Positions 4,612-20,628 of a DNA stretch of 52,613 nt are shown piece by piece. The DNA is from a bacterium HR37. GTDB taxonomy: Bacteria > Desulfobacterota_D > UBA1144 > Nemesobacterales > CSP1-2. The stretch spans positions 1 to 52,613 of the forward strand of contig BEIN01000017.1 of NCBI GenBank assembly GCA_002898375.1, given 5' to 3'. The notes beneath the pieces are model-generated. The model made no database searches. It saw only the letters and a program-made list of their open reading frames with translations, and was not told the DNA's origin. Position numbers and translations under genes: made by a program. Each line of letters opens with the position of its first letter. The stretch's first letter is position 1.

Positions 4612-5862
4612 CTACAGTTTCTCAAAGACCAGCAGGTCTTCTAAGGTTTCTGCTCTTCTTATAACCTCAAACTTACCATCATCTACAAGCAAAACAGCAG
4701 GACGTGGAAAAATAAACTGAGTGGATTGAGAAAAATTATACGCACCAACATTTTTCACAATTAACATGTCACCGGCTTTAAGTTCCGGAAGCTGTGTTAC
4801 AGCAACTATATCAGTTTGAAGACAAAGAGGCCCGTATAAAATCACCTCATACCCCCCTCCTCTATTTTCCACCAAAGCCTCTACCTCCTGTCCGCTCCAC
4901 AGCGAGGTGGGAAGAAGATTAATACCAGCATCAACTACAACCCCTATCCTCCCTCCCCCTAGTTGCTTGATCCCAACAACCGTTGCCACAAGATGCATGG
5001 CATTTTTTACCAGTGCTCTACCTGGCTCCAGTATAACGGTTGGGAGTTTTTCTCGAAGACCCTTTAATACAGGTTCAGAAACGGCCAGAACGTAATCTCT
5101 TAACTTTTCCCCTATTCCTGGAAATCCCCCTCCAATATCCAGGTAATCCAAAGTGATTCCAAACCTCTCTTTCAATCTATTTGAAAATTCCACAACCTTT
5201 ATTAAGGCATTTCTATAGAGATTGTGATCCTTTGGCCAGATAAGTCTGATCTTTCTTGCGGTTATCGAACCTTTTGATATATCACCCTCCAGTATGTAGC
5301 TTGTAAGATGTACATGGAGCCCAACAACGTTTAACATTTTCCTCTCTACACACCTGGTAATAACACTCTCTGCTTCCCCAGATTCCAAATCAAACCCAAA
5401 TCTGTCAACCGAGTTAATACCAAGATTAATCCTTACCCTAACACCTATGTCAATAACCCTCCCAGCTTGTGATGAGATCTCCTCTAAAAGCTCAATCTCT
5501 TTCCAATGGTCTACATTTATTAAGGCCCTATCCTCTACAGCCCTAAAAAGCTCCTCTCTTCTTTTATAAGGACCGTTAAAAACAATCTTACCACCTGGTA
5601 CACCCAGCAATCTTGCAATCTCATACTCAAAACCAGATGCCACCTCAGCCCATACCCCTTCTTTGTGCAGTACTCTAAGCAGGCCCAGTAAAGAGTTGGC
5701 CTTATAAGAGTAAGCAATCTCTATTTTTGGATAAACGCTACTGAATTCCTCTCTAAATAACCTTACATTCTCCCTAAGAGTATTAGCTAAAATCACAAAA
5801 AGCGGTGAACCGTATTCTCTAATAGCGTTTTCTATATCTATATCCATATTCAGGATCTGCAT
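4612..5862 (-). CDS. PLP-dependent amino acid decarboxylase, alanine-racemase-fold (LysA/ODC group)
   Basis: This protein of about 416 residues has the barrel-plus-sandwich decarboxylase signature. The PLP lysine lies in AYSYKANS, followed by EVASGFEYEIA, GLHVHLTS, YLDIGGGFPG, EPGRALV and the C-terminal GPLCLQTDIV, which supplies the catalytic Cys and the substrate-binding Asp. All key residues are present, so it should be active on an amino acid, but CLQTD differs from the usual diaminopimelate decarboxylase motif. The reading frame is open to a TTG at 5874 overlapping the upstream stop. ATG at 5862 is preferred, although neither has a clear Shine-Dalgarno. It is the last gene of the cluster and follows a cysteine-synthase-like gene, the same pairing as sbnH with sbnA in staphyloferrin B loci. 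Confidence 0.85.
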   Translation of the reverse strand: MQILNMDIDIENAIREYGSPLFVILANTLRENVRLFREEFSSVYPKIEIAYSYKANSLLGLLRVLHKEGVWAEVASGFEYEIARLLGVPGGKIVFNGPYKRREELFRAVEDRALINVDHWKEIELLEEISSQAGRVIDIGVRVRINLGINSVDRFGFDLESGEAESVITRCVERKMLNVVGLHVHLTSYILEGDISKGSITARKIRLIWPKDHNLYRNALIKVVEFSNRLKERFGITLDYLDIGGGFPGIGEKLRDYVLAVSEPVLKGLREKLPTVILEPGRALVKNAMHLVATVVGIKQLGGGRIGVVVDAGINLLPTSLWSGQEVEALVENRGGGYEVILYGPLCLQTDIVAVTQLPELKAGDMLIVKNVGAYNFSQSTQFIFPRPAVLLVDDGKFEVIRRAETLEDLLVFEKL

Positions 5863-5870
5863 ACCATTAA

Positions 5871-6803
5871 TCAATATTTAGACAAGTATTTAAAGCCAGT
5901 ATCTGGAAAAACCGCAACTATGCACTTATCTTTTCCAACTGTTGAGGCATATTTAAGTGTTGCAGCCATAACAGCACCACTTGATCCTCCAACAAGGATT
6001 CCCTCTTTCTTTATAAGTGCATTCACCATCTCTATAGCCTCCTCATCCGAAACCTGGACCACATCATCTATGTACCTAAAATCAACCACACCGGGTATAA
6101 AGTTCTTTCCGATACCCTCGATATTAAAACCAGAGGCTTTTATTAGAATGCCCTCTTTAAAGTAGTTCATGTAAACCGAGCCTTTTGGCTCTACACCTAT
6201 AATTTTTATATTAGGATTCCTTCCCTTCAGATACCTTCCAACTCCCGTTATAGTTCCACCAGTTCCCATACCACACACAACCACATCAACACCTCCACCT
6301 GTATCGTACCAGATTTCGGGCCCCATAGTTTTAAAGTAGGTCTCTGGATTTAAAGGATTAAAGTACTGGTTTACATAAAAACCACCTGTTTCTTTTGCCA
6401 CCCTCTGAGCCACCTTATAACAGCTTCGCTCATCCTGTGGAGGAAGCCCTTTGGGGGTTATAATAATCTCTGCTCCAAACAGCTTAAGTGCTTTTATCTT
6501 CTCTTCGCTTGTGGACTCAGGAAGGGTAAAGATACACCGGTAGCCTTTTACTGAAGCAACGAGAGCAAAAGCCATACCCATATTTCCAGATGTAGCTTCA
6601 ACAATAACATCTCCAGGTTTTAAAAGTCCCTTACGTTCTGCATCTTCTACCACGTAGAGTGCAACCCTATCCTTCAGGCTCCCACTCGGATTACAGAACT
6701 CTAGTTTCGCATACACACTGCAACCAAAACCCCTGGTTATTCTGTTTAGCTTAACAAGTGGAGTTCTACCAATCAGTTTTAAAATACCTTCAGATATCCT
6801 CAC
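5871..6803 (-). CDS. Cysteine synthase / CBS-like PLP beta-replacement enzyme
   Basis: This 310-residue fold-type-II PLP enzyme carries LIGRTPLVKLN, the Schiff-base lysine K44 in NPSGSLKDR, the TSGNMGMA loop and GMGTGGTITGVGRYLK for the phosphate cup. The C-terminal PDTGFKYLSKY is like cystathionine beta-synthase catalytic domains. The reaction is expected to be replacement at the beta carbon of a serine or cysteine derivative. In this context the nucleophile could be sulfide, ammonia or cyanide; beta-cyanoalanine or 2,3-diaminopropionate formation are guesses. The GTG start overlaps the upstream TGA (GTGA), suggesting translational coupling. Confidence 0.88.
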   Translation of the reverse strand: MRISEGILKLIGRTPLVKLNRITRGFGCSVYAKLEFCNPSGSLKDRVALYVVEDAERKGLLKPGDVIVEATSGNMGMAFALVASVKGYRCIFTLPESTSEEKIKALKLFGAEIIITPKGLPPQDERSCYKVAQRVAKETGGFYVNQYFNPLNPETYFKTMGPEIWYDTGGGVDVVVCGMGTGGTITGVGRYLKGRNPNIKIIGVEPKGSVYMNYFKEGILIKASGFNIEGIGKNFIPGVVDFRYIDDVVQVSDEEAIEMVNALIKKEGILVGGSSGAVMAATLKYASTVGKDKCIVAVFPDTGFKYLSKY

Positions 6804-8182
6804 AGACCTTGCCTGATCCTGTGTATGATTCTGGCCGCACGTTCAGTTTGCCTTGATTCAAAAAACCTGATTACCCCTTCTCTGTAAATACCTTCTTTTG
6901 CTTCGGAAATAGCCTTGGGTAAAGAACGTACCAGGTGGTTAAAAGACCTTATATCCGGTCTTGATATATTTAGGCGTATGTACTCAGTTGCACCCACATC
7001 TCCAAGCCCATCCCCGGGATAAACCGCTATACGGTATTTAAAGAGCGCCACCGTTAGTTCCTGAGCACTTACACCTGTTTGAGAAACATCTATGACCATT
7101 GAAAATCCGTATCTTGGCTCTACAGGTATACAAACACCCTTAACCTTGTCCATCGCCTTCCTTACGTAGTGGTAGTTTCGTCTTATTATATTCTCAGATT
7201 TCTCTACATACTCCTTGTCCTTAAGAGCAGCTAAAGCTCCATACTGGGCAATTAGATTGGTGTTTAGTCTGGTTAGAGAAACCTTTGTTATAAGGCATGC
7301 TCTTATAAGGTCAGGATGGCCAGCTAGAAAACCTATACGAACTCCAGCCATTCCATACCCATGGGACACGCTGAATGTTGATACAACATTATCCACATTT
7401 GTTTCCCTCCAAAGTGAGCTCATTGGATAATGAGTAGAATTCGGATCTATGCGGTGGGTGTTGTGTGTAATGTCGTTAATTATAATTAGATCATGTCTTT
7501 GTGCGATTTCCGCAAGTGCTATTAATTCCTCCTTAGTCTGTACGGTACCAAACGGATTAATAGGATCGCAAACGATAATTACCTTTGTTTTTGGGGTAAG
7601 CCTCTCTCTTACCTCATCCGGATTCAAGCGATATCGGTTATGCTCACCAAGGGGTATCTTTACAGGTACTCCCCCTGCCATTAAGATAGCAGATTCAAAA
7701 TGAAAATAACCGGGATCAGTAACAATAACCTCTTCCCCCGGATTTAGAAATGTCTGAAGCGCATAGGAAACCCCTGCCTGAGCCCCTTCCGTTCCAATTA
7801 CTTCAAAATCCCCACTTCTCCTGCGCTTGAGTTTTATCTCCGCACACGCATCTCTAAGAGGCGCTATAAGATCAGGGGAATAGGGATTAATATTAGAGGC
7901 CTTAGTGTGAAGCCGCATGGCCCGTATAACGCTTTTGGGAGGACCTAAATGGCAGGTCATCCATCCAAAGTCAAACCACCTTTTGGGATCCAGGTCGATT
8001 CTTCCCTCTTCGTATATATCCTCAGCCCTAAGACCCAATATCCCTATCGCATCGCGATAAGTCATGTAGTTCCACATTCCGTGTGGACTCTTCATAACCG
8101 CCTTTACCCTCTCGGAAAGAACACCCTCTAAGGAGGGAAATTTACCTTGACTTTCCCATCCAAGAACAAACCTCTCTTCCTT
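6800..8182 (-). CDS. Class I/II aminotransferase-fold protein with His replacing the PLP lysine
   Basis: This protein has about 460 residues; numbering is from TTG at 8182, which has GGAGG eight bases upstream. TTG at 8200 is the longer alternative. The aspartate-aminotransferase fold is clear: DPGYFHFES, N209 in DPINPFGT, D237 in IINDITHNTH, R282 in AGVRIGF and YIRLNISRP near the C-terminus. The PLP lysine position, normally S-x-S-K followed by six residues to G-x-R, reads S-V-S-H, so H274 (codon at 7361-7363) replaces it. The usual Asp-x-x-Tyr tyrosine is His as well. The D-to-H spacing of 37 fits the family, so this is not a misalignment. It cannot be a normal transaminase. A PMP-dependent dehydratase-like role (ColD precedent in another subfamily), oxidase chemistry or a binding function are possible. 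Confidence 0.85.
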   Translation of the reverse strand, partial: KEERFVLGWESQGKFPSLEGVLSERVKAVMKSPHGMWNYMTYRDAIGILGLRAEDIYEEGRIDLDPKRWFDFGWMTCHLGPPKSVIRAMRLHTKASNINPYSPDLIAPLRDACAEIKLKRRRSGDFEVIGTEGAQAGVSYALQTFLNPGEEVIVTDPGYFHFESAILMAGGVPVKIPLGEHNRYRLNPDEVRERLTPKTKVIIVCDPINPFGTVQTKEELIALAEIAQRHDLIIINDITHNTHRIDPNSTHYPMSSLWRETNVDNVVSTFSVSHGYGMAGVRIGFLAGHPDLIRACLITKVSLTRLNTNLIAQYGALAALKDKEYVEKSENIIRRNYHYVRKAMDKVKGVCIPVEPRYGFSMVIDVSQTGVSAQELTVALFKYRIAVYPGDGLGDVGATEYIRLNISRPDIRSFNHLVRSLPKAISEAKEGIYREGVIRFFESRQTERAARIIHRIRQGL

Positions 8183-8211
8183 CAAATAAAAAACCTCCAA
8201 TATATATTTTA

Positions 8212-9072
8212 TTAAGCCTCTGTCCCTCTCATCATAACAACTGCATATATTCCGTATGGATCCATTGTAATCTCTGGATTCTCAAACCCGGCCTCTCTTG
8301 CCCATCCCACCACCCTATCCACGGGTCGAAGATGCCAAATACAGCGCTCTCCCTTTTGATTTGTAAGAACACGTGCAATAAGCTCTATCTGTGGATTATA
8401 GGTCTGCACATTAAACAAAAGTGCATCAGGATTAAGAATATTTCGCACATGATGAAGGTGTTTACGAACTAGCTCATCCTCGTGTATGATTCCATAGAGA
8501 CCAACTTCAACAACAAGATTTGGCCTAGGATATATTTCCTTAAGACTTTGGGGATCAAGGGCATCTCCCACCTCGTATTTGATCCTGTCAACCAGACCCA
8601 GCCTTTCGGCAATAACCCTGCTTTCCCTAAGGGCTTTTTCATCTATATCACGAAGAAGAACCCTTACGTTTGCACCCTCTACCTCCTTAAGGGCACAGTA
8701 AATGTAGTCTGCCTTTCCAGAAGCAAGGTCAACTATAAAGGTTGGCTTTCCATCCCTTTCTTTAAGGTACCTTTTGATCATATCCTTCTGTATCTGCTTA
8801 ATAGACCTAAAAGCCTTACAGGTAATCTGGTCTAAAAAAATCCTGTCTATAAACCTCCCTATATAGAAGCGACCCCGCGGGGTGTTCTCATATACGTAGT
8901 TCATTATCATCCCTGAATCAAAGCCGTATGTGTAACCTATTCTTATACCCTCTGAAAGCCTTCCCACCGTTCTTAGAAAGACTGAAAAAAACCCATAATA
9001 CCACCTTTTTGGGGAATACCACGGAAGAGGGTTAATTAACTCCATAAAATCAGGCATACTCTTACGAGACAT
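8212..9072 (-). CDS. Class I SAM-dependent methyltransferase (PF12147-like)
   Basis: This 286-residue protein has an N-terminal helical cap of about 115 residues (GFDSGMIMNYVYENTPRGRF) and then a Rossmann methyltransferase core. Motif I is FIVDLASGKADY, motif II is VRVLLRDIDEKAL, then YEVGDALDPQSL and VVEVGLYGIIHE. The N-terminal region plus the LRDID acidic loop resembles the putative methyltransferase family PF12147; the acceptor is unknown. The start overlaps the end of the upstream helical-protein gene by 11 bases, so the two products are probably made together. Confidence 0.75.
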   Translation of the reverse strand: MSRKSMPDFMELINPLPWYSPKRWYYGFFSVFLRTVGRLSEGIRIGYTYGFDSGMIMNYVYENTPRGRFYIGRFIDRIFLDQITCKAFRSIKQIQKDMIKRYLKERDGKPTFIVDLASGKADYIYCALKEVEGANVRVLLRDIDEKALRESRVIAERLGLVDRIKYEVGDALDPQSLKEIYPRPNLVVEVGLYGIIHEDELVRKHLHHVRNILNPDALLFNVQTYNPQIELIARVLTNQKGERCIWHLRPVDRVVGWAREAGFENPEITMDPYGIYAVVMMRGTEA

Positions 9073-9628
9073 ACCACTTTATCTCCTCGTCTTCTCTTTC
9101 GGTGTATATGCTTTCAGCAAGCAATCTAAGTTCCTCAGCTCGCTTTATCCTCTCTGGAGTACTGGCATGTGCCTTTATATATCTCTCAAGAAGCCCTATA
9201 TGCTCTTCCACATCCTTTCGAATCTCCTCAATTATTCTCTTACTTTTAGCATCGGCTACATCATAGTAGAGGTTAAGCAGTGACATAAAGTGGTTAAGCG
9301 AGCCCAAAGCATAAGCAAAACAATCAATCGTATCTTCATAGGATTCCAGAAACTCATAGATCCTTTCTCCAATTTGTGTAGGCCTATATCCTTGGGGGTT
9401 GTCCCCTAACTCTCTGGCCCTATCTGAGAAAAGCTTTGCGTGTTTTGCGTTGTCAGCTATCACACGAGCAGCAATTAACTTCGCATCAAGGTCTTTTATT
9501 GATTTTAGCTTGCCACCAAACACATCAACCCAAGTAACCATTCCGTAAACATGCCTGCTAAACGCCCTTGCAAGACATCTGGGATTACCAAGTACCTCTT
9601 TTAGTATCTCTGGGTTACGTACAGCCAT
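9062..9628 (-). CDS. All-helical protein of unknown function, possibly ferritin/haem-oxygenase-like
   Basis: This 188-residue protein is predicted almost entirely helical and fits a four- or five-helix bundle. Candidate metal ligands are in helices: D59, N60 and H63 (ADNAKHAKLF), E95 and E98 (LESYEDT), H113 (LNHFM) and E141, E142 and H143 (DVEEHIGLL). These are near, but do not match, the ExxH pairs of classical diiron ferritin-like proteins, so a diiron role is only a possibility. The ATG has a good Shine-Dalgarno (TAGGAG). It lies between a short FdrA-like gene and the methyltransferase it overlaps. I do not recognise the family with confidence. Confidence 0.6.
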   Translation of the reverse strand: MAVRNPEILKEVLGNPRCLARAFSRHVYGMVTWVDVFGGKLKSIKDLDAKLIAARVIADNAKHAKLFSDRARELGDNPQGYRPTQIGERIYEFLESYEDTIDCFAYALGSLNHFMSLLNLYYDVADAKSKRIIEEIRKDVEEHIGLLERYIKAHASTPERIKRAEELRLLAESIYTEREDEEIKWYVS

Positions 9629-9641
9629 TAAGTATCTCCTA

Positions 9642-10097
9642 TCAGTATAGCTTCTTTAAGATGTTTACCAGCCTTGTATCCCCTCCTGCAGGAACCTGCC
9701 AGTCCACATGAACCACTTCTACCCCTTGCTGTTCAAGAGCTTCTTTGAAAATCTCAAGCCCTATGTTTATCACGGTGACTTTCTGATTAAGCAGATCCGA
9801 GGTTTTTTTCACATCTTTGGAGATATCCATGGATACAAGCTCTTCCATTCTGGCAATGACCTTATCAGCTAGCTCCTCCGAGTCAGCCTCAACAACCATA
9901 ACCAGATCGCTTCCAGTAGCCTCTTTTATCTCTGGTGTTAAGAGCCCCGCACTTTCAAGGGCAAACTTGGCCTTATCAGTTGCCATAACCACAACAGCCT
10001 TTCTCACTCCTTCCGTTTCCTGCACGGTTTTAGATATCCGCATTAAACGGAGGGCGTCCTGAAAATAGTTTTTTCTTATTTTGCACTTTATAGGCAA
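9642..10097 (-). CDS. Short FdrA N-terminal-domain protein
   Basis: This 151-residue protein closely parallels the N-terminus of the full FdrA at 19066-20628. IRKNYFQDALRLMRISK matches IRKNFYQDSMKLMQISQ, and MATDKAKFALESAGLL matches MATEANINMLRESGLL. Both continue with DLxxxVEA and a helical segment. It then leaves FdrA and ends with VINIGLEIFKEALEQQGVEV followed by VHVDWQVPAGGD, a segment that I recall next to DUF1116-type proteins in other species. It has no CoA-binding or ligase domain, so it is probably a regulatory or subunit-bridging version. TTG at 10097 follows a strong AAGGAGAGGG. Its end lies 13 bases before the helical-protein gene. Confidence 0.75.
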   Translation of the reverse strand: MPIKCKIRKNYFQDALRLMRISKTVQETEGVRKAVVVMATDKAKFALESAGLLTPEIKEATGSDLVMVVEADSEELADKVIARMEELVSMDISKDVKKTSDLLNQKVTVINIGLEIFKEALEQQGVEVVHVDWQVPAGGDTRLVNILKKLY

Positions 10098-10498
10098 TTT
10101 CCCTCTCCTTTATTACCTATTGAGTATTCAATCGGGCATGAATTTATAATTGTATTGCTTACAAAGCAATACCTTTTTGCAAGTCCTAAAAGATCCTCCA
10201 TAACACCCAAAGGAAGAGAACTAAAAACACATACAAGTATCTTTGAGAAGAGAAAGTTCTCTAAGTCCTTCTCTCCTTTTACTTTAACAGTCAAATCCTT
10301 AATTTCAATCCTCTTTTTCCTGGCGACATACACAATGGCAAGACAGAAACAAGAAGCTAAGGAGCAGAGAAAAAGCTCTGTTGGCATCATACCGGTATCT
10401 TCCCCGTGAAACTCCGGAGCTTCATCAACATTAACCGAAAACTGTCTTGCTCTAACCTCGACCTGATAGTTTCTCTTCCATAGAGCTTCTACTTCCAT
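10088..10498 (-). CDS. OsmC/Ohr-family protein
   Basis: This 136-residue protein matches the OsmC fold: MMPTELFLCSLASCFCLAIVYVARKK (residues 37-62) with the first redox-site cysteine, and AKRYCFVSNTI with the second near residue 115. OsmC proteins reduce organic hydroperoxides or act as small-molecule thiol-dependent enzymes. Here it may protect or process a reactive intermediate of the cluster, which is an inference. It overlaps the short FdrA-like gene by 10 bases, and AGTAGGAT stands just before the ATG. Confidence 0.82.
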   Translation of the reverse strand: MEVEALWKRNYQVEVRARQFSVNVDEAPEFHGEDTGMMPTELFLCSLASCFCLAIVYVARKKRIEIKDLTVKVKGEKDLENFLFSKILVCVFSSLPLGVMEDLLGLAKRYCFVSNTIINSCPIEYSIGNKGEGNCL

Positions 10499-10505
10499 AT
10501 CCTAC

Positions 10506-11678
10506 TTATACCTCCAGCACACTTCTGTAAAACTCCAAATGCTCTAATCCAGCTTTTCTCCAGCTATAGTTTTTAACCGTTTCGAGTCCCCCTTTAATGA
10601 GCTTCTCCCTTAATTCATCTACCTCCAAAACCCTTACAATCTGAGTTGCCAAAGCCTTATAATCATAAGGATCAACCAGCATCGCATTAAAACCATCAAC
10701 CAGGTACTCAGTAAATGGCTCTATATTGGAAGCAATCACAGGAACACCACATGCCATAGCTTCAAGAACAACAAGACCCCAACCTTCCTTTACAGAGGGA
10801 AAAACAAAGACATCGCTTGCCATGTAGAGCTTAACAATTAAATTATCCGGTACATTTCCCGTTATAACTATATCATCCCCGATACTTAAACCAAGTTCCT
10901 TAACCTCCCTAAAAAACCTTTCACGGTAGTCTCTATAATCAAAGAGTGTCTCTCCCCCAGCTATTATCCATATTAAGCACTCACCCTTTTCCTTAAAAAA
11001 CGAACTGGCTATTTTAAAAGCCCTAAGTATCATCAGGGTATTTTTTCGGGGTTCAATTCCCCCTATACTCAAGAGTATCTTTTTTCCGTCCAAAGATAGC
11101 TCTTTCTTTGCATCTTCCCTTGAGCACAAGGGGACAAACCTCTTTTCATCAATACCGTTATAAATAAGGGTCGAGTCCAGAGAATAATGCAAACGCAACT
11201 CATTCTGCCAAAACCTGCTTACAACAATCAGGTAATTAGGCTCCCTTATACTCCTTAGCTGACATTCTATCAGTGACCTGGATTTAAAATCATCTATATG
11301 GTGAACAGTCCGGATAAACGACTTTATCAATCCCTTGCTTCTTAACTCATAAAGAACGTTTGCAGAAATACAATCACCAGCATGATATATATCGTATTTG
11401 ATTTTCCCGGACTCAGAAATCATGTAATCAGTATATACCTGTATGTATCTGCTTATCTTATCGTCAATACTCTCATACTCTATAGCTGGACAGGGAATAA
11501 GAGTATGGGGAACACCTACTTGCCTAAAGAAACCCGACCCCGTAGAAAGAGCGTATATGTGGACTTTTTGACCAAGACGAACCAACTCCTCAGCAAGGTT
11601 CAGGATATAAACCACCCCACCTCTTGGCTTTGTAGAGTAGGTAAAGAGAGCAATTTTAAGTTTCTCTGTAAAACTCAT
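10506..11678 (-). CDS. GT4 glycosyltransferase, MSMEG_0565 family
   Basis: This 390-residue GT-B glycosyltransferase has N-terminal FTYSTKPRGGVVYILNLAEEL, HAGDCISAN and RTVHHIDDF, the linker SIGGIEPRKNTLMILRAF, and the C-terminal nucleotide-sugar site FPSVKEGWGLVVLEAMACG. The opening TYSTKPRGGVV and the DCISAN/RTVHH segments are the features I associate with the MSMEG_0565 family of the Nit1 nitrogen-starvation locus. Donor and acceptor are unknown. The 23-base overlap with the DUF2877 gene upstream puts it in the same operon. Confidence 0.8.
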   Translation of the reverse strand: MSFTEKLKIALFTYSTKPRGGVVYILNLAEELVRLGQKVHIYALSTGSGFFRQVGVPHTLIPCPAIEYESIDDKISRYIQVYTDYMISESGKIKYDIYHAGDCISANVLYELRSKGLIKSFIRTVHHIDDFKSRSLIECQLRSIREPNYLIVVSRFWQNELRLHYSLDSTLIYNGIDEKRFVPLCSREDAKKELSLDGKKILLSIGGIEPRKNTLMILRAFKIASSFFKEKGECLIWIIAGGETLFDYRDYRERFFREVKELGLSIGDDIVITGNVPDNLIVKLYMASDVFVFPSVKEGWGLVVLEAMACGVPVIASNIEPFTEYLVDGFNAMLVDPYDYKALATQIVRVLEVDELREKLIKGGLETVKNYSWRKAGLEHLEFYRSVLEV

Positions 11679-12678
11679 CTATTCTTTGAACCTCTAGGTG
11701 CTCTAGTTTTGATAGCAAGAATCGAATTCCATAGAAAATACCAGTTGCAATATCTGCTCCCGAAGTCTCCCCTATGTTTAAAACAGACCTAGAGAGGGAA
11801 GCAACCTCACTTGGCTTCCCGGTTAAGATGGAATGGATAAGGTCAATTACTACTTTGGGCCCCTCCCCACTTTTAGCCTGTATTAGGAGACTCTCTCCAT
11901 ATACGTTTGTTTTACCTCTAGCAAGCCTAGATACTAGAGTTGCCACCTTCCCGTAGAAAGAAAGCTCAGTGCTTTTTCTGCCAAAAATAGCCTTTCCTCC
12001 AATCAAAAGACTTAGCATCAGCCCAGCCAAGAAATCATCGCAAGAAGGGGTAAGTCCAGGCCCCAAACCGATAAGAACAGAAGCCCTATCGAGAACCACA
12101 GAGGTACTTCCACCAAAAAGCCCCCACATAAGAGCCTCAACGGCTGGTCTGGCCCTCTGGGAAAGCGTAGGCTCTGTAGCATCTTTATCCTCTAAAAAGA
12201 GCTTAAGAGGACCTTTTTTTTCCACCTCCTCCAGTAAAGGAACCAACCCCTCTCTACTAGGGCATGTATAAATCGCATCCCTAAGGATTCTAAGATTTAA
12301 ACCTATTTGACTAACACCTTTAATGGATTTCCTGCTAAGAGAATACGAGGGAGGAGTCCAGATAGAGGCTTTCTCCAAACCAACTGTAAGGGTTCCCGCA
12401 TCAAACACAAGTGCGCTGGATTTAAGCTCAACACTGGTATCAGATCTCACCCCAAGAGATTTAAAGCTCTTATCCACTTCAAGAAGAATAGAATAAGGGG
12501 TCATGTAATCCATGTTTCCCACCATACTAACCAAGTAGCGTCTGCCAAAACCAAGATAGATGGATTTATCAAAAACACCAATTACTTTAACCAGCTTGGC
12601 CCTTCTTATCACATTAAGCGCCCTGTAGCCTATAGCTCTTGCCTTTAGCGACTCTTTTAAACCTCTTTTGCCACACAT
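11656..12678 (-). CDS. DUF2877 protein (YlbF/AllH-like, transcarbamylase-associated)
   Basis: This 340-residue protein has the DUF2877 signature LIGLGPGLTPSCDDFLAGLM (residues 202-221) and the C-terminal SGADIATGIFYG. In E. coli the DUF2877 protein YlbF, with FdrA and YlbE, is reported to form oxamate carbamoyltransferase (AllFGH). The other two partners are encoded 7-9 kb upstream in this same cluster (19066 and 20641). The family usually has SGDDF, and here the glycine is cysteine. It sits between a glycosyltransferase and a degenerate carbamate-kinase-like gene. Confidence 0.85.
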   Translation of the reverse strand: MCGKRGLKESLKARAIGYRALNVIRRAKLVKVIGVFDKSIYLGFGRRYLVSMVGNMDYMTPYSILLEVDKSFKSLGVRSDTSVELKSSALVFDAGTLTVGLEKASIWTPPSYSLSRKSIKGVSQIGLNLRILRDAIYTCPSREGLVPLLEEVEKKGPLKLFLEDKDATEPTLSQRARPAVEALMWGLFGGSTSVVLDRASVLIGLGPGLTPSCDDFLAGLMLSLLIGGKAIFGRKSTELSFYGKVATLVSRLARGKTNVYGESLLIQAKSGEGPKVVIDLIHSILTGKPSEVASLSRSVLNIGETSGADIATGIFYGIRFLLSKLEHLEVQRIDEFYRET

Positions 12679-12684
12679 ATTGCT

Positions 12685-13638
12685 TTATTTTCCCTTAACT
12701 ACCCTCGTCCCAGCCCTTCCCTCTAAAGCCAAAAGAGCACATGAGGGTGTTGTTATTATTGCCTCTTTACCCCCTGATTCCACAAACATTACCGCAGCCC
12801 TTACCTTGGGTTCCATAGACTTTGAGGGGAAGAAGCCCCTATTTATATAGGACTTTAAATCCTTAACGTCTACACAATCCAGATCAACCTGATCCCCCCT
12901 TCCATAGTTTATGGCAACCTTTTCTACATTTGTTAGAATCAAAAGCACATCAGCACCTATGCTTGAAGCAAGACAGGCAGAGGCAATGTCTTTATCAACA
13001 AGAGCCTCAATCCTACATATCCTTCCGTCTTCTTTTGTTAAAAACGTAACCCCGCTACCTAAAATCATAACCAACGAGTACTTAAGTAAAAGTTCCTCTA
13101 CGATGTCACACTGCACTATATACCTGGGTATAATACTCGGGAGCAGCCTGTGGTATCCCAAACCATCTTCACTTCTCATAAACAACCAACCCTTCTTTTT
13201 GAGTTCCCTTACCCTATCCTCACCCAATAAAGGAGCAACCGGTCTAAAAGAAAGAGGATTTAAAAAACCTTCTTTCTCAGAGATCATCTGTATCATTGTT
13301 ACCGTAAACTTAAATCTATTAACAAAGCCCTCCTCTATAAGAAGATTATAAAGAGCCTGGCTAAAAAGATAAGCCAGCTGACCATCAACCCCTGCAGCAA
13401 CCACATCAAAGGGCATCTGGGGTACATATTCCGAAGCAATCTCCTGTTGAACAAGCATATTCCTTATCAAAGGGGCTTTACCAAAAACCAAAACCACCTT
13501 ATACTCCTGCTTTAGTATCGGAAGTATGGCATCCTGACAAATTGCATCTATGTTTTTGATCTGCTCTGATATCTCTCCCTTCTGTGTAGGCTTTACAATA
13601 GAGTTTCCACCAACTGCCAGAACAACTACACCTTTCAC
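12685..13638 (-). CDS. Carbamate-kinase-like protein with degenerate active site
   Basis: This 317-residue amino-acid-kinase-fold protein aligns along its length with the carbamate kinase at 18131-19069, but conserved sites are changed. GGNA becomes GGNS, the substrate loop HGNGPQVG becomes FGKAPLIR, the glycine-rich CGGGGIP becomes LGSGVTF and SMGPK becomes SMEPK. VDKDIA and MEPKVRAA are kept. It is therefore unlikely to be a normal carbamate kinase; a new substrate or a regulatory subunit is likely. The start chosen is GTG at 13638, with GGAGAGG upstream. The open frame runs to an ATG at 13746 but would overlap the preceding gene by 88 bases and add 36 residues with no match to the family. 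Confidence 0.78.
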   Translation of the reverse strand: MKGVVVLAVGGNSIVKPTQKGEISEQIKNIDAICQDAILPILKQEYKVVLVFGKAPLIRNMLVQQEIASEYVPQMPFDVVAAGVDGQLAYLFSQALYNLLIEEGFVNRFKFTVTMIQMISEKEGFLNPLSFRPVAPLLGEDRVRELKKKGWLFMRSEDGLGYHRLLPSIIPRYIVQCDIVEELLLKYSLVMILGSGVTFLTKEDGRICRIEALVDKDIASACLASSIGADVLLILTNVEKVAINYGRGDQVDLDCVDVKDLKSYINRGFFPSKSMEPKVRAAVMFVESGGKEAIITTPSCALLALEGRAGTRVVKGK

Positions 13639-13658
13639 CTTAGGATCCTCTCCCACAA

Positions 13659-13928
13659 CTAACCAGCGTGCATTGTCTTTTTCCAACTTGGACGTTTTCC
13701 AGGTGGATAAGAGGTAAGGAGAATTATCTTCTTGCGTATACTCCATGGAATCTTAAGGTAAAGGGGAACAAATACCTTTCGCCAGAAAAAATGAGAAAAC
13801 CCCTTTTCACGATAGGGTTCTGCACACATCCCAGGGTATAGCTTTCTCATCTCATCAGCTGCAGCCTCCATTAAGTACTTCTCTGCGTTCTTTCTTAACC
13901 ATTCTCCAAAGGTTTTTTTCTCTGGCAT
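13659..13928 (-). CDS. Small conserved-looking protein of unknown function
   Basis: This 89-residue basic protein begins MPEKKTFGEWLRKNAEK. It contains AAADEMRKLYPGMCAEPY, FSHFFWRKVFVPLYLKIPWS and a lysine-rich tail. A single cysteine lies near residue 38. There is no signal peptide and no motif I recognise. The ATG at 13928 follows AGGGAGTG at ideal spacing; an upstream TTG extends the frame by 10 codons but has no ribosome site. It lies 34 bases after the flavoprotein and 20 bases before the carbamate-kinase-like gene, so it may be a small subunit or adaptor for either. Confidence 0.6.
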   Translation of the reverse strand: MPEKKTFGEWLRKNAEKYLMEAAADEMRKLYPGMCAEPYREKGFSHFFWRKVFVPLYLKIPWSIRKKIILLTSYPPGKRPSWKKTMHAG

Positions 13929-13962: not shown

Positions 13963-15312
13963 CTATTTTAACTTCCCCAATTTGCTAAGTCCTGCCTGAG
14001 CAGCTAACGCAATTGGCTCCATGAGTGCACCAATAGGAGGAGAATACACATTCTCCATCCATGCAAAATCCTCAAGCGTTGCTCCACGTTTTATGGCAAA
14101 GGCAAGAAAATCTGCTCTTTCCTTAATCCCTTCTCCACCAACCAGTTGTGCTCCGGTTACACGAAGGGTATCAGGATCTGCAATCAGCTTTACCCTAATC
14201 TTACTAACCCCTGGATAGTATCTTGCCCTAGAGATCCCCTCAGCAACAGCAACAAAATGGGGAATTCCCAAAGCCTTATGGAGTGTTTCTCCAAGAGAAA
14301 CGCCTCCAATCATCACTTTCCCACCTACCATACCCCAGGGAACAAAAACAGGGTCATAACTGCGATCACCACCTGCAGCATTAGCCCCTGCAACTTTTCC
14401 CTGAGAATAGGCATGACTGCCAGAAAGCCCCTGAATGGGAATCTCCGTTACACCGTGGATGACCTCTATGCAGTCACCGGCTGCGTAAACATCCTTTACA
14501 GATGTCCTCATATGATCATCAACCACTATTCCGCCTGTTGCCCCAATCTTTATACCAGCCTCACGAGCTATACGGTTATTTGGAACCTTATGTGTAGCAA
14601 CAACAACTAGTTCACAATCTATCTCTCCCTCCGTTGTACTTACAGCCTTTACCCTTCCATTTTCTCCTTTAAATGCAAGAACCTTAGTTCCCAAATGGAT
14701 TTTAACACCCATCTCTTCCAGGGACTTATGTACCGGTTCCATTATATCAGGGTCAGCAACCTTAGACATAAGCCAGGGTCCTTCATCTACCAGATAGGTT
14801 TCAAGTCCCCTGTGGGCAAGATTCCCAGCCATCTCGATCCCAAGTGGTGTTGCCGATACCACAACAACTCTCTTTATTTGATCAAGCACCTTGTCAAACT
14901 CCATCGCACGACGAATGTTCTTCACATAGTAAAGACCCTCTAGATCAATACCCGGTATATCAGGCTTATCATACTCAAATCCCGTAGCAATTATAAGACG
15001 GTCCCATCCAAACTCTTGAGAACCAACGCTTACGGTTCGCCTCTCAATGTTGATCCCTGTAACCTTAGTCTGCAACCTAAGATCTATTCCAATCTCTGCA
15101 TAGTGTTCCGGAGTCTGAAGGAACAACGACCTAAAATCGGGAATTTCTCTTCCGTGTACAAACGGAATACCACATGGGCTGTAAGCTACATCTTCAAATT
15201 CGGTAAAAAGTGTTACAGAGGCATCGGGTGCAACCGATTTTGCGGTAGAAGCTGCAGAAATACCAGCAGCCCCTCCGCCGATTACAATGATACGCAAACC
15301 ATCTTTAGCCAT
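13963..15312 (-). CDS. FAD/NAD(P) pyridine-nucleotide-disulfide oxidoreductase, CoA-disulfide-reductase type
   Basis: This flavoprotein of about 449 residues has the FAD-binding GGGAAGISAAS, a single active-site cysteine in YSPCGIPFV, the second Rossmann segment VVVVSATPLGIEMAGNLA, the FAD motif DVYAAGDCIEV and a dimerisation domain to the end. A lone N-terminal Cys rather than a CxxxxC pair places it with CoA-disulfide reductase, NADH oxidase and persulfide reductase. Position 3 of the NAD motif is Ala-Thr-Pro rather than GxG. ATG at 15312 with AGGTGAG upstream is preferred to GTG at 15321. It follows the radical SAM gene and may supply electrons to it or handle thiol intermediates. Confidence 0.85.
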   Translation of the reverse strand: MAKDGLRIIVIGGGAAGISAASTAKSVAPDASVTLFTEFEDVAYSPCGIPFVHGREIPDFRSLFLQTPEHYAEIGIDLRLQTKVTGINIERRTVSVGSQEFGWDRLIIATGFEYDKPDIPGIDLEGLYYVKNIRRAMEFDKVLDQIKRVVVVSATPLGIEMAGNLAHRGLETYLVDEGPWLMSKVADPDIMEPVHKSLEEMGVKIHLGTKVLAFKGENGRVKAVSTTEGEIDCELVVVATHKVPNNRIAREAGIKIGATGGIVVDDHMRTSVKDVYAAGDCIEVIHGVTEIPIQGLSGSHAYSQGKVAGANAAGGDRSYDPVFVPWGMVGGKVMIGGVSLGETLHKALGIPHFVAVAEGISRARYYPGVSKIRVKLIADPDTLRVTGAQLVGGEGIKERADFLAFAIKRGATLEDFAWMENVYSPPIGALMEPIALAAQAGLSKLGKLK

Positions 15313-15389
15313 TACACTCACCTCACCAAAGTATTTATCTCTCCACCCTGCCTATAAATACCAGAAACAACTTCTATTCCACAAGCTGG

Positions 15390-16523
15390 CTATCCTGTAT
15401 TAATAGGCTTTATAAACTTCCTGAATTTTACATTACTGCCCTCAGTAAAAGCCTTCTCGAAATCAGGAAGTGCAGAACACTCTCCACAGCTTACGCACCC
15501 AGCTTTGCTACTCTTTGCGCTTCCTTCATACCTTGAGAGTATCTTTGCAACTTCTGTATACACATACTCCATAACCTCGGGTCTAGGAGGTTTTACATTT
15601 TCCATAGGGGTTCCTGCGATGGGGCGAAACGGAACAACGAAGGGATAAACCCCTATACTGGCACATAGAGCAGCACCTTCTATTACGGTTTCTAATCTTT
15701 CTCCAAGTCCAACCAGTATGTAGGTACTTACCTGCCACCTTCCAAAAACCCTTACAGCCTCCTTCCAGGTTTCAATGTACTTGTTGAAACCGATTCTCGC
15801 TTTACCCGGTGTGATCTTCTCAAAAACCTCGGGATCAAAAGTCTCTATATGCACCCCCAGAGCATCAACACCCGAGTCCTTTAAGACCCCAAGCCATGAG
15901 AGATCCTCGGGAGGGATTATCTGAAGTTGAATTGGCAAACCTGTTGCCCTTTTAACCTCAGAGCATATCTCAGCGTATTTTCGAAGGGCCTTTTCCTCAT
16001 CCTTTGCCACCCCGGAGGTAAAAACAATATTGGAGATCCCATCTAGTTCCTTTGCAAGCAAAATAGTCTCTACCAAATTCTTTGCATTTTTAAAACCTAC
16101 AGTACTTCTGTCCTTAAGAGTAAGCTCAATTCCGCAGAATTTACAACGCCTATCATCTTCCCAGAAAACACACGTTTGAAGGAGAGTTGTAGCAAAGGTC
16201 GTTGGGCAGTGAAGAAGGCCTATCTTCTGCATCGGAATCCCGGTAGAGGTCTTATGGTTGTAAAACTTTGCCACTCCCATAAGTTCAACCTGAACCAAGG
16301 CCACATCGTCTTTAAATATCCAGTACTCACCATTTATCTGGTCAAGATAGTATGGGGAAGAGCTAACGAAGTCTCCAACCACAGGTATGTTCGCTTCGGT
16401 ATCAGGCAGAATCCTTAGGTGAATTCCACCCGTAGGTCCGGCACCTCCCCTCCTTATATCTTTTGTATTTGGAATCCTTAGTCCATAACTCTGTAATTCC
16501 ACTTTTAGGATTCTAGAATCCAT
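15390..16523 (-). CDS. Radical SAM enzyme, MSMEG_0568 family, with CX8CX2C cluster motif
   Basis: This 377-residue protein carries TCVFWEDDRRCKFCGI, a C118-x8-C127-x2-C130 motif in place of the usual CX3CX2C. IVFTSGVAK, LQIIPPEDL and ALGVHIETFD follow in the TIM barrel. A C-terminal cluster, C343, C346 and C349 (AGCVSCGECSA), could ligate an auxiliary iron-sulfur centre. Length, order and context match the MSMEG_0568/sll0785 family of the Nit1 locus, whose reaction is not established. The start follows AAAAGGAGAGG, itself 15-20 bases after a perfect hairpin. Upstream is the MSMEG_0572-like gene, as in Synechocystis, but without the nitrilase between them. Confidence 0.87.
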   Translation of the reverse strand: MDSRILKVELQSYGLRIPNTKDIRRGGAGPTGGIHLRILPDTEANIPVVGDFVSSSPYYLDQINGEYWIFKDDVALVQVELMGVAKFYNHKTSTGIPMQKIGLLHCPTTFATTLLQTCVFWEDDRRCKFCGIELTLKDRSTVGFKNAKNLVETILLAKELDGISNIVFTSGVAKDEEKALRKYAEICSEVKRATGLPIQLQIIPPEDLSWLGVLKDSGVDALGVHIETFDPEVFEKITPGKARIGFNKYIETWKEAVRVFGRWQVSTYILVGLGERLETVIEGAALCASIGVYPFVVPFRPIAGTPMENVKPPRPEVMEYVYTEVAKILSRYEGSAKSSKAGCVSCGECSALPDFEKAFTEGSNVKFRKFIKPINTG

Positions 16524-16631: not shown

Positions 16632-17123
16632 TTAAACCGTCCAGGTGCTAAATATCATTGCTCCAGCCCTGTGATGCTCTATCACTATATCTAGAATATC
16701 GGTTGGATGAATGGGTCTAACACCTTCTATAAAGTCCTCTTCTCTTAACCCCAGAAGTGCAGCAGCAGAAAACCTACAGGCATAGACCTTTATTCCTTCC
16801 TTTAACATCCTCTCCACGAGGTTTGGATAAAGCTGAATACCGGCTCCATAACCATCTTCTCCAACATTTGGCCACCCTCTATAAACCGGTATACCCGAAG
16901 CAGGTCCATAGAAAACCACACTTACATCGTATCCTTTCCTCTTACATCTTATAGCCGTAAGCATGTTTATACCCGCTACAGAGCCCTCATAAGGAACGGT
17001 ATGTACCAAGAACAGAGCCTTCTCTCCCGGATTTGCTTTATGGTCTGGAAATACCTTCTCCTCATAATTGACCAGGGCCTTTCCCTTTTCAGGTCTTTCT
17101 CCTTTTACTCTTTCTACAGCCAT
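16632..17123 (-). CDS. MSMEG_0572/Sll0783 family nitrogen-starvation protein (DsrE-like)
   Basis: This 163-residue protein opens with a charged segment and EEKVFPDHKANPGEKALFLVHTVPYEGSVAGINMLTA. That is followed by RKGYDVSVVFYGPA, KVYACRFSAAALLG, IHPTDILDIVIEHHR and a terminal FSTWTV. This pattern is the one I know for MSMEG_0572/Sll0783, the first gene of the cyanobacterial Nit1 operon induced by nitrogen starvation. The fold is DsrE-like, with one cysteine (YACRF). The biochemical role is unknown. The ATG has a full AGGAGGTAAT Shine-Dalgarno, implying strong translation. The amidohydrolase lies 24 bases upstream. Confidence 0.88.
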   Translation of the reverse strand: MAVERVKGERPEKGKALVNYEEKVFPDHKANPGEKALFLVHTVPYEGSVAGINMLTAIRCKRKGYDVSVVFYGPASGIPVYRGWPNVGEDGYGAGIQLYPNLVERMLKEGIKVYACRFSAAALLGLREEDFIEGVRPIHPTDILDIVIEHHRAGAMIFSTWTV

Positions 17124-17147: not shown

Positions 17148-17993
17148 TTATCTAGAATAAAGCTTTTGGGCATTTTCCCAGAATATCTTGTTTTTTAACT
17201 CCTCTGAAATCTTTGCTCCCTCTATCTTCCAGTACTCTGAAGGGAAGTCTCCCCAAGGGGTATCAGAGGCAAAAACCACATTATCGGTACCTATACCGGT
17301 ACGCTCAATCTCGTAAAGCAACCAGCGGGAGCCAAATCCAATTGACCACGTCGTATCGGTGTAAATCTGGTATCCATCCTGTATAAGCTCAAGAAACCTG
17401 GGGACAAGCCTTATATGACCACTTACCCCACCTCCCATATGCACAAGATGAATCTTTATCCTCTTTCCGTACTCTTTAACAAACTCAAGCGCATTTCCTA
17501 TATCAGAACCGCCTCCAGGGCTTGTGTGTAAGTGGAGAACGAGGTTGTTTTCTTCAGCAGCCTTTACAATGCTATCCCATATACCCCTTACCGTATCATC
17601 CCATTCACTTGGATTGTAAGTCCCTCCAAGAAGAGAGGTAGCCTTTAGTGCAACTATTCCCTTTTCCTTTACGTGCTTAAGAGCCTCTTCAGTCCGCTCC
17701 TTATCCTTTGCCAGACCAGAAACCCATATGGCCCCAACAAGTCGATCAGCCTTGTGAACACTATCAAGCACAACGGGATTTAGAGAGAAAGGCTGAGAAG
17801 AGTCAGGAACACCGTAGTTGGATATCACCATTGCCCTGTCTATACCATAGTAGTCCATATGCTTTATGTACTCCTTGGCAGATGGGTACTCTATTACAGT
17901 TGGTTTCACAGGTTCCTTTAGGTCATAAAACTTATATGGGGGCAACTCCCCTATATGAGTATGAGCATCAAATACCTTTCTTTTTACCTTCAT
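17148..17993 (-). CDS. TIM-barrel amidohydrolase (PF04909 type)
   Basis: This 281-residue metal-dependent hydrolase has metal ligands HTH in FDAHTHIGE (residues 9-14), LHLHTSPGG, IHLVHMGGG and the catalytic Asp in FASDTPWGD. The family includes hydrolases and decarboxylases of small amides, lactones and aromatic acids. The gene occupies the place beside MSMEG_0572 where Nit1 loci have their nitrilase, so it may perform the hydrolytic step of this variant, which is an inference. The ATG is preceded by AGGAGGTGAT. A 137-base gap to the carbamate kinase contains a promoter candidate. Confidence 0.85.
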   Translation of the reverse strand: MKVKRKVFDAHTHIGELPPYKFYDLKEPVKPTVIEYPSAKEYIKHMDYYGIDRAMVISNYGVPDSSQPFSLNPVVLDSVHKADRLVGAIWVSGLAKDKERTEEALKHVKEKGIVALKATSLLGGTYNPSEWDDTVRGIWDSIVKAAEENNLVLHLHTSPGGGSDIGNALEFVKEYGKRIKIHLVHMGGGVSGHIRLVPRFLELIQDGYQIYTDTTWSIGFGSRWLLYEIERTGIGTDNVVFASDTPWGDFPSEYWKIEGAKISEELKNKIFWENAQKLYSR

Positions 17994-18130: not shown

Positions 18131-19069
18131 TTACAGAACTATCTCAGTTCCTCCCTCCCCCTTGATTGCAGACTCTATACCCTCAAGAGATGTTATAATT
18201 ACTTTTTTACCTCCAGATTCCAAGAAACTAATGGCAGCTTCAATCTTTGGACCCATACTTCCAGGAGGAAAATGACCCTCTCTATAGTACTGCTTTGCTT
18301 CTTTAAGAGTCATAAACCTTATGTTCCTCTGCTTAGGTGTGCCAAAAAATATAGCAACCTGATCCACTGGAGTAATCAAAAGAAGCATCTCTGCTTCTAT
18401 AAGGCTTGCAAGCCTCTCAGCAGCAAAGTCTTTATCAATCACCGCGGCTACCCCTCTTAGCAAACCGTTTGAGTCTCTAACTACAGGTATACCTCCGCCA
18501 CCGCATGCTATTACAACAAAGCCCCTTCTTACCATATCTGCAATCTCATACTTCTCTACTATATCAATTGGCTTTGGAGAGGGAACAACCCTTCTCCAAC
18601 CTCTTCCAGAATCTTCTTTTATCTGCCAGCCTCTCTCCCTTTTTAGTCTTTCACCCTCCTCTCTGCTAAAAAATGGTCCTATAAACTTTGTGGGATTAGA
18701 GAAAGCTGGATCATCTTCTGAAACCACAACCTGAGTTACAACAGCTACTACAGGTTTATTTATACCCATACTAAAAAGCGTATTTTTAAGAGACTGCTCT
18801 ATCATATAGCCCATCTGCCCCTGTGTCATCGCATTACAGACATCAAGAGGCATAGCCGGAAGAATACTTGCCATGCACTCCTGTTGCATAAGAAGATTTC
18901 CAACTTGAGGTCCATTACCGTGAGTGATAACTAGGTTGTATCCAAAGTCAAATAGCCTTACTATTTTTTCGCACATCCTCCGGGCCTTAACCAGCTGTTC
19001 CTGATAGCCACTCTTACCATCACTTCCCATAAGAGCGTTCCCACCAAAGGCAACAACTGCTGCCTTCAT
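18131..19069 (-). CDS. Carbamate kinase
   Basis: This 312-residue amino-acid-kinase-fold enzyme has all carbamate kinase motifs: VAFGGNALM, ITHGNGPQVGNLL, CGGGGIPVV, AVIDKDFAAERLA and PPGSMGPKIEAA. It makes ATP from carbamoyl phosphate and ADP, releasing carbamate. The gene overlaps fdrA by 4 bases and lies two genes after the DUF1116 gene, as in the E. coli allantoin-degradation region where carbamate kinase follows the transcarbamylase genes. There is no arginine deiminase or ornithine carbamoyltransferase in the window, so the supply of carbamoyl phosphate is more likely the FdrA system. Confidence 0.93.
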   Translation of the reverse strand: MKAAVVAFGGNALMGSDGKSGYQEQLVKARRMCEKIVRLFDFGYNLVITHGNGPQVGNLLMQQECMASILPAMPLDVCNAMTQGQMGYMIEQSLKNTLFSMGINKPVVAVVTQVVVSEDDPAFSNPTKFIGPFFSREEGERLKRERGWQIKEDSGRGWRRVVPSPKPIDIVEKYEIADMVRRGFVVIACGGGGIPVVRDSNGLLRGVAAVIDKDFAAERLASLIEAEMLLLITPVDQVAIFFGTPKQRNIRFMTLKEAKQYYREGHFPPGSMGPKIEAAISFLESGGKKVIITSLEGIESAIKGEGGTEIVL

Positions 19070-20628
19070 CCACCAACCCCCTTTTTTCCTCTAGTTACAA
19101 TCCATCCAGCTACCCTAGAGGCAAGTGCATTTGTGGGGAGAACAAAAACCCCTGCTTTCTTTAGCTTCTCTTCCTGCAGACTCAACCTTTGAGGGTCATC
19201 TTCGGTTCCACAGACATGTGATACAAAAGCAATCACTCTACCTTTACTCTTTGCAATTTCTTGAGCTCTTTTAATTGCTGGTACAAGCTCACCAGCAGGA
19301 TCAGGATGAGCTACATAACCGAGTACCACATCGAAAAGGATAACAGCCGTAGAAGGGTCTTTTGCTTCCTCTATCATCCTCTCTATCCTCAGGGTAAGGT
19401 CTATCATTGGATGTGGTCGACCTCTGGTAAACTCTTCTTCCCCCATGTCGATACAGGTATGCCCCTTACTCCTGTTTGGGTTCTCCAGTTTGTTTTCTTC
19501 TTCTATGGGAGCATTGGAGTAAATCCTCTTTAGCACAGGAGTAAGAACCTGCTGGGCCTCATAGCAAAGCGTTCCTCCTGAAAACAATCCTCGTAGATAC
19601 TTTTGTCTTGTATTAAGAGAGCCAATAAACTTTTCGGCTCTTCTCTTCCAAGCTCTTTCAGATACAAACGTACTTTTTGTAAAATTCCCATCAGCCAGCT
19701 TAAACGCCTCTAAGGCCGCCTCTTCCAGAGTGGAGGCAAATCTAATATTTAAATACCCATTCTGATCAAATCTTTTCCCCAGAAAACACATAACTGCTGG
19801 TTTACTAAAAGCACTGGCTATATCTAGAATCTTCTTGGCTATTTTCTCGGAAGGTGGTTTGGAAACAACAAGAATAACCCTTGTATTTGCATCCTCCTGC
19901 AACATCTTTATCGCTTCTATTGCAGTAATCCCTCCAACCTTCTCAGATAGATCCCTTCCACCCAGACCAATTGCATGGGATATACCCAAACCCCAATTGT
20001 GAATTAGGCTTGTAACCTCCTGTATACCAGTACCTGCTGCAGCAACCACACCAATGGGACCTCGTCTAACCACGTTTGCAAACCCAAGCCCCACTCCATT
20101 TATTATCGCAGTTCCACAGCCAGGTCCCATTACCAGAACACCTCTTCTTCTTGCACGTTCTTTAAGCTCAACCTCTTCCTCTATCGTCACATTATCACTG
20201 AAGAGAAAAGTGTGGAGTCCCTTTTCAATTGCCTTTACAACCTCTAACTTGGCATATTGACCAGGTATAGACACAAGCACGATATTTGCGTTAGGCATTG
20301 CTTGATAAGCAGAGTCAAAATTTCTGTACTTCACCTCAGATAGGACACCTGACCTTACAGGCATCAAAAGGGAATCTAGCTTTTCTATAGCCTCTTTTGC
20401 AGCATCTTCCGTTTCAGCTTCAACAGCTACAATTAAATCGTTTGCACTTACCGAATCCGGAACCTCTTTTAACAAACCGGATTCCCTTAGCATATTAATA
20501 TTTGCTTCCGTTGCCATTATGGCCGAAGCCTTTTTAACCCCCGGAAGTGTGCTAAGCCTTTGACTTATCTGCATAAGCTTCATTGAGTCCTGATAGAAGT
20601 TCTTTCTAATGGTACTTACTACAGCCAC
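19066..20628 (-). CDS. fdrA: FdrA-like acyl-CoA-synthetase-fold protein (transcarbamylase subunit)
   Basis: This 520-residue protein has an N-terminal ACT-like or ferredoxin-like domain (residues 1-115) and a SucD-like Rossmann region with LVMGPGCGTAIINGVGLGFAN and VAAAGTGIQEV. The ligase-type half contains RGLFSGGTLCYEA and ends near VLPTNALASRVAGWI. Despite the acyl-CoA synthetase fold, E. coli FdrA (AllF) is reported to be part of oxamate carbamoyltransferase with YlbE and YlbF. GTG start with AGGAGG. The gene is 13 bases after the DUF1116 gene and overlaps carbamate kinase, so the order DUF1116-fdrA-kinase forms a tight unit. Confidence 0.92.
   Translation of the reverse strand: MAVVSTIRKNFYQDSMKLMQISQRLSTLPGVKKASAIMATEANINMLRESGLLKEVPDSVSANDLIVAVEAETEDAAKEAIEKLDSLLMPVRSGVLSEVKYRNFDSAYQAMPNANIVLVSIPGQYAKLEVVKAIEKGLHTFLFSDNVTIEEEVELKERARRRGVLVMGPGCGTAIINGVGLGFANVVRRGPIGVVAAAGTGIQEVTSLIHNWGLGISHAIGLGGRDLSEKVGGITAIEAIKMLQEDANTRVILVVSKPPSEKIAKKILDIASAFSKPAVMCFLGKRFDQNGYLNIRFASTLEEAALEAFKLADGNFTKSTFVSERAWKRRAEKFIGSLNTRQKYLRGLFSGGTLCYEAQQVLTPVLKRIYSNAPIEEENKLENPNRSKGHTCIDMGEEEFTRGRPHPMIDLTLRIERMIEEAKDPSTAVILFDVVLGYVAHPDPAGELVPAIKRAQEIAKSKGRVIAFVSHVCGTEDDPQRLSLQEEKLKKAGVFVLPTNALASRVAGWIVTRGKKGVGG

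Follow-up and report, generated by a model that had tools for sequence, protein, structure and literature searches.

The lysine of pyridoxal 5'-phosphate (PLP) enzymes is a textbook catalytic residue, and histidine cannot form an internal aldimine. To our knowledge, the natural enzymes that have histidine in place of this lysine all use nucleotide sugars. In the 3-dehydratases E1, ColD and SpnQ, the natural histidine works as an acid/base together with pyridoxamine 5'-phosphate (PMP), while the reverse mutant of E1, H220K, transaminates only non-catalytically (PMC8987622). In aspartate aminotransferase (AspAT) the same substitution was engineered, and the K258H enzyme is reported to be catalytically active (Malashkevich et al. 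1995, Biochemistry 34:405); a histidine alone is therefore compatible with slow transamination. Another PLP enzyme of relevance here, GntC, binds the cofactor on K219 (PMC10367076).

Two gene sets are also of interest for comparison: the nit1C gene cluster, which includes a nitrilase, and the AllFGH-K genes, which make up the oxamic transcarbamylase pathway of E. coli (PMC11326118).

We describe HisAT, a protein of the class I/II aminotransferase fold encoded in contig BEIN01000017.1 of bacterium HR37 (the window, i.e. the whole stretch of 52,613 nucleotides that was analysed). The open frame spans positions 6800-8200 of the minus strand, and the likely start is the TTG codon at 8185, with GGAGG at 8198-8194. 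The residue numbers used below count from the AAG codon at 8182; with the TTG start, the true number of H274 is H275. The features of the locus are collected in Table 1.

Table 1. HisAT, its active-site codons and the genes around it (positions in the window).
Feature	Positions	Strand	Remarks
Fold-type III PLP decarboxylase-like (DAP/N-citrylornithine decarboxylase-like)	4612..5874	-	
PALP, cysteine-synthase-like PLP enzyme, fold type II	5871..6803	-	GTG start overlaps HisAT stop
HisAT, class I/II aminotransferase-fold protein, 461 aa	6800..8185	-	start TTG 8185-8183, stop TGA 6802-6800
H274 codon CAT	7361..7363	-	position of PLP Schiff-base lysine (Lys258 of AspAT)
H240 codon	7463..7465	-	position of AspAT Tyr225; His in both subfamilies
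D237 codon	7472..7474	-	Asp222 of AspAT; Asn in Lys-type sister clade
MT20, Methyltransf_20 SAM methyltransferase	8212..9072	-	directly upstream of HisAT
All-helical protein, predicted TenA/CADD/BesC-like (heme-oxygenase-like) fold	9062..9628	-	
Short protein like N-terminal domain of FdrA/AllF	9642..10097	-	
OsmC-like protein	10088..10498	-	
MSMEG_0565-family glycosyltransferase	10506..11678	-	above NCBIfam cut-off
AllH-like protein	11656..12678	-	Pfam
Carbamate-kinase-like, divergent copy	12685..13746	-	
CoA-disulfide-reductase-like flavoprotein	13963..15321	-	SPCGIP motif
MSMEG_0568-family radical SAM protein	15390..16523	-	above cut-off
MSMEG_0572/Sll0783-family protein	16632..17123	-	above cut-off
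Amidohydro_2 amidohydrolase	17148..17993	-	
Carbamate kinase	18131..19069	-	above cut-off
FdrA/AllF-like	19066..20628	-	above cut-off
AllG-like	20641..21942	-	Pfam
PuuR-like HTH-cupin regulator	21950..22534	-	
sll0787-family AIR-synthase-like protein	22539..23522	-	above cut-off
MSMEG_0567/Sll0786 GNAT acetyltransferase	23526..23984	-	above cut-off

HisAT scored 122.8 bits against the Pfam family Aminotran_1_2 (PF00155, cut-off 19.7), which places it in the class I/II fold, compared to a partial DegT match of 39.1 bits that covered residues 134-246 only. Since Aminotran_1_2 was the best family, we rejected membership in the DegT/DnrJ/EryC1 family of E1 and ColD, and the initial annotation was right to put this His variant in the AspAT group. 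The closest NCBIfam models, PRK06225 (NF004870) with 191.5 bits and GntC with 166.2 bits, stayed far below their cut-offs (351 and an equivalog cut-off of 415, respectively), and HisAT was therefore assigned neither to the PRK06225 aminotransferases nor to the GntC cyclodehydratases.

The AlphaFold model of HisAT (pLDDT 89.5, pTM 0.90) predicts an AspAT-type three-dimensional fold. In the best rows of a Foldseek search, the model matched the AspAT-type structures 1xi9, 1gd9 and 1bjw with E ~1e-25 and query TM 0.70-0.75. Searches with phmmer and with profiles also led to AspAT-type chains, with 1dju/1gd9 and 1j32 at the top.

From the alignments and the established AspAT numbering we derived the equivalences of His274 to Lys258, N209 to Asn194, D237 to Asp222, R282 to Arg266 and R403 to Arg386. 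The codon and the motif around it (FSVSH-GYGMAGVR, within FSVSHGYGMAGVR) confirmed that H274 stands in place of the PLP lysine. Of the residues expected in an active transaminase, HisAT thus lacks the Schiff-base lysine and has, in D237, N209, R282 and R403, the equivalents of the other four; at the lysine position it carries the residue typical of E1 and ColD. Compared to the AspAT-type enzymes 1gd9, 1j32 and 1bjw, with which it shares the fold and these four equivalents, it has His for Lys258, His (H240) for Tyr225 and a long conserved N-terminal segment, SPHGMWNYMTYRDAI. Like E1, ColD and SpnQ, it has His for Lys; unlike these DegT/DnrJ enzymes of sugars, it belongs to the other subgroup and has kept the alpha-carboxylate Arg.

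We found orthologues of HisAT with 65-76% identity in 22 of the 61 genomes searched (its own genome included), and His274 was invariant in all 20 close orthologues that were aligned. A scan with one genome per species gave 32 loci, the relatives being mostly Candidatus Dadabacteria. Orthologues were also present in 13 of 349 sampled Thermoleophilia genomes and in one of 245 Dehalococcoidia genomes.

The initial annotation had proposed to check the substitution in an alignment of homologues. Among 38 distinct orthologues from Dadabacteria, Thermoleophilia and the one Dehalococcoidia genome, with a mean pairwise identity of 57% and a minimum of 41%, His was present at position 274 in 37. The residue stayed fixed while the identity dropped to 41%, therefore we conclude that it is under selection. 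That the His codon arose from a sequencing or assembly error, by chance or as a one-off mutation is practically ruled out by this conservation, as the same His was seen in three bacterial groups that are only distantly related and whose genomes were assembled independently. The lone exception was a Thermoleophilia locus (L059, 10757-10795), where a one-residue deletion took out the His codon; the flanking residues were changed and the cluster was apparently intact.

The residues G133, Y101, Y159, N209, D237 and R282 were invariant in the 38 His-type rows, and R403 was found in 36 of the 36 rows that reach it; the earlier remark that N209, D237 and R282 are retained thus holds across the whole subfamily. 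In contrast to HisAT, the class I/II paralogues from the same genome had a lysine: it was clearly aligned at 274 in five of the six in pairwise alignments, and for the sixth (L002) the multiple alignment shows an SK in this motif.

Homologues with Lys at position 274, which the initial annotation had taken as a sign of a one-off mutation or sequencing error, do exist. However, they form a separate sister clade, with Asn instead of Asp at position 237. This Lys-type subfamily comprised six sequences, 48-50% identical to HisAT, from alphaproteobacteria and Tissierellia: Rhizobium herbae, two Pararhizobium, a Rhodobacteraceae, a Rhodospirillaceae and a Tissierellia (loci L049, L050, L051, L054, L055 and L062). 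They were recovered as one clade in two trees, with support of 96/99 and 100/100.

The Asp at the position of D237 (Asp222) is otherwise near-universal. Judging by these six sequences of one clade, each of the two subfamilies would lack a different one of two classic catalytic residues. Only 12 columns were fixed but different between the His and Lys subfamilies; these include 237, 274, 305, 307 and 308, and the segment with the last three is expected to line the active site. On the other hand, the His at H240 was common to both subfamilies. Monophyly of the His form was not rejected (p-AU 0.33, in a tree with a distant outgroup), and the root is too distant for the tree to settle the order of His and Lys.

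A related GntR regulator was located nearby in all six Lys-type loci. The sequence stretches around the six genes contained HisAT cluster genes in none of the cases (0/6), and no Lys-type copies were found on plasmids.

A different lysine might form the Schiff base in HisAT, and K300 would be the candidate, since no other lysine was conserved throughout (38/38 rows of the His type, 6/6 of the Lys type). However, the sister clade has K300 in addition to Lys274, and K300 aligns with a Lys of 1j32, an enzyme that has a catalytic Lys of its own. Moreover, the comparison of the 38 His-type with the 6 Lys-type rows revealed no compensating lysine gained specifically in the His subfamily. We consider a Schiff base on K300 to be quite improbable.

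HisAT lies in a closely packed run of genes on a single strand, with MT20 upstream, the PALP gene overlapping its stop and the decarboxylase-like gene after that. The operon-like setting with MSMEG_0568-like genes, which had been noted earlier, was borne out by the radical SAM protein. Wherever the cluster is complete, in any of the groups, the decarboxylase-like gene comes with HisAT, while the PALP gene is present only in a part of Dadabacteria. In Thermoleophilia most of the cluster genes are found as well, though arranged differently. Among the annotated neighbours we found no Lys-bearing class I partner enzyme. Judging from the decarboxylase-like, AllFGH-like, cysteine-synthase-like and SsuD-like proteins among them, the neighbours may be concerned with the chemistry of amino acids, of carbamoyl groups and perhaps of sulfur.

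Several features of the region deserve mention for their own sake. The three successive genes at 4612-8185 represent three PLP fold types (I, II and III). Of the two carbamate-kinase genes of the cluster, one (12685-13746) falls short of the curated arcC cut-off and the other (18131-19069) exceeds it. In the helical protein (9062-9628), H26, H63 and H113 are conserved, but in Thermoleophilia some of the metal ligands that one would expect are missing. We did not adopt its assignment as a diiron oxygenase, as the fold match was only suggestive (best E 1e-3) and the ligands differ between groups. At 2438-3530 on the plus strand, the N-terminal part of EgtB (profile positions 2-186 of 413) overlaps the C-terminal part of EgtD (127-299 of 301), each in its own frame, which looks like the result of a deletion within egtB-egtD.

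The cluster shares with nit1C the MSMEG_0572 protein, the radical SAM protein MSMEG_0568, the GNAT protein MSMEG_0567 and the sll0787 AIR-like protein; homologues of NitB, NitD, NitE and NitF thus stand together, with matches above cut-off to TIGR04044, 04043, 04045 and 04049. However, it adds to them an amidohydrolase, AllFGH-like proteins, carbamate kinase, PLP enzymes and OsmC. No sll0784-type (nit1C) nitrilase was detected above cut-off in the genome (best score 226 bits versus 502.6), and we rejected a simple nit1C locus on this ground.

With AllFGH-AllK of E. coli the cluster has in common AllF/FdrA-, AllG- and AllH-like proteins and carbamate kinase (FdrA and carbamate kinase above cut-off, AllG and AllH as Pfam matches), but here this set stands among nit1C-type genes. 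No allantoin genes were present among the annotated neighbours of HisAT. The combination of nit1C-type and AllFGH-type genes was not found in the literature searched, whose coverage was partial and gives no proof of novelty; searches on Dadabacterial clusters, aminoacrylonitrile and lysine-free class I enzymes returned nothing useful.

The genes directly beside HisAT came in two alternatives, either MT20 with the helical protein or an alkanesulfonate-monooxygenase-like gene of the luciferase family (SsuD-like, 331.9 bits, below its own cut-off). MT20 and the luciferase-family gene never occurred together in the loci compared, which suggests that they replace one another. In Dadabacteria, MT20 was the constant upstream partner of HisAT, including a stand-alone two-gene unit. 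A paralogous Dadabacterial branch (L014, L016, L029 and L030, with the neighbourhood taken from L036) had the MT20-HisAT pair only; in L036 this unit, at 9122-11380, had unrelated genes on both sides.

Among the 45 good genomes (at least 90% complete), HisAT, the MSMEG_0568-like radical SAM gene and MT20 were found in an identical set of 16. The Fisher test of this co-occurrence gave p 1.5e-12 with kinship ignored, but within a single genus (g11) three genomes carry these genes and most do not. With His in all close relatives but one, and with the constant company of the cluster or of the methyltransferase, HisAT is conserved and probably functional, an unusual enzyme and not the product of a chance mutation.

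The loss of the Schiff-base lysine could also mean a pseudoenzyme, i.e. a protein that catalyses no reaction but takes up PLP, PMP or a metabolite of the pathway as a ligand, or serves as a scaffold for a partner such as the methyltransferase. The conserved N-terminal extension could bind a partner, and both the stand-alone MT20-HisAT unit of the paralogous branch and the member without His (L059) fit this explanation. However, all cofactor and carboxylate contacts are invariant across phyla, and the phosphate, ring and alpha-carboxylate contacts would be of no use to a protein that had decayed or taken on another purpose. Besides, loci with the luciferase-family gene have no MT20, and the same family scaffold does carry the lysine in the Lys sister clade. 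We regard a non-catalytic role as unlikely.

HisAT may alternatively be a nearly normal aminotransferase in which PLP is bound noncovalently and His274 serves as a slower 1,3-proton shuttle in place of Lys. The retained R403 and N209, the overall resemblance of the fold to 1gd9 and 1j32 and the activity stated for AspAT K258H are all in line with it. That mutant has the same substitution in the same fold group but is a laboratory construct, whereas HisAT presents a naturally fixed state with a further change, H240. The fixation of His over such divergence, along with H240 for Tyr225, suggests a different optimum, and a transaminase that gives up its lysine should become slower and hold its cofactor less well, with no gain in return. 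Near-normal transamination thus appears improbable.

From the sequence, its conservation, the predicted fold, the gene context and the co-occurrence we infer how HisAT may bind its cofactor, what His274 may do, and what kind of reaction and substrate to expect. The reading we favour, with some confidence, is that of a working PLP/PMP enzyme of the AspAT fold in which the lysine was permanently replaced by a His that moves protons, and which is not a normal transaminase. As the PLP- and carboxylate-binding residues are all retained, AspAT structure-function relations suggest that HisAT still binds a cofactor as well as an amino or 2-oxo acid. The phosphate cup and contacts of Asp237 and Asn209 would keep the cofactor in place instead of an internal aldimine. 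Because His cannot make such a bond, an alpha-amino or 2-oxo acid substrate, held by Arg403 and perhaps Arg305, would form the imine directly with free PLP or PMP.

His274, aided by His240, could then shuttle protons among C-alpha, C4' and the leaving group, as the His of ColD and E1 does for sugars. Elimination, tautomerisation or similar imine chemistry would be favoured over ping-pong transamination. HisAT would act in a conserved multi-gene pathway with the radical SAM/GNAT/AIR-like core, the decarboxylase-like enzyme, the AllF/AllG-like transcarbamylase parts and carbamate kinase, and with either the methyltransferase and the helical protein or the alkanesulfonate-monooxygenase-like flavoenzyme beside it.

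Three observations count against this proton-shuttling enzyme: the loss of the residue in L059 within an apparently intact cluster, the invariant K300 as a candidate Schiff-base lysine, and the carboxylate-binding Arg kept in HisAT, whereas the natural enzymes known to have His for Lys work on nucleotide sugars. The initial annotation, which had suggested non-transaminase chemistry or a binding role, was correct in its observation but incomplete, as it did not include the Lys274/Asn237 sister subfamily, H240 for Tyr225 and the AspAT K258H precedent.

A more specific proposal can be put forward tentatively, at a little under even chances. HisAT may represent a naturally lysine-free class I/II PLP/PMP family, an amino-acid counterpart of ColD. 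With its His274/His240 pair it would convert an amino or 2-oxo acid in one defined reaction other than transamination, and the pathway around it, so far undescribed, would link chemistry of the nit1C type with the transfer of carbamoyl groups; the sister subfamily would have kept the lysine and given up the ring-nitrogen aspartate.

A naturally fixed His at the PLP lysine has so far been described for sugar dehydratases of another subgroup. The two sister subfamilies, one without the Lys258 and the other without the Asp222 equivalent, offer a ready evolutionary experiment on the need for each residue. The gene set, with its radical SAM, GNAT, AIR-like, transcarbamylase, carbamate kinase, decarboxylase-like and oxygenase-like components, points to an uncharacterised pathway in Dadabacteria, Chloroflexota and Thermoleophilia.
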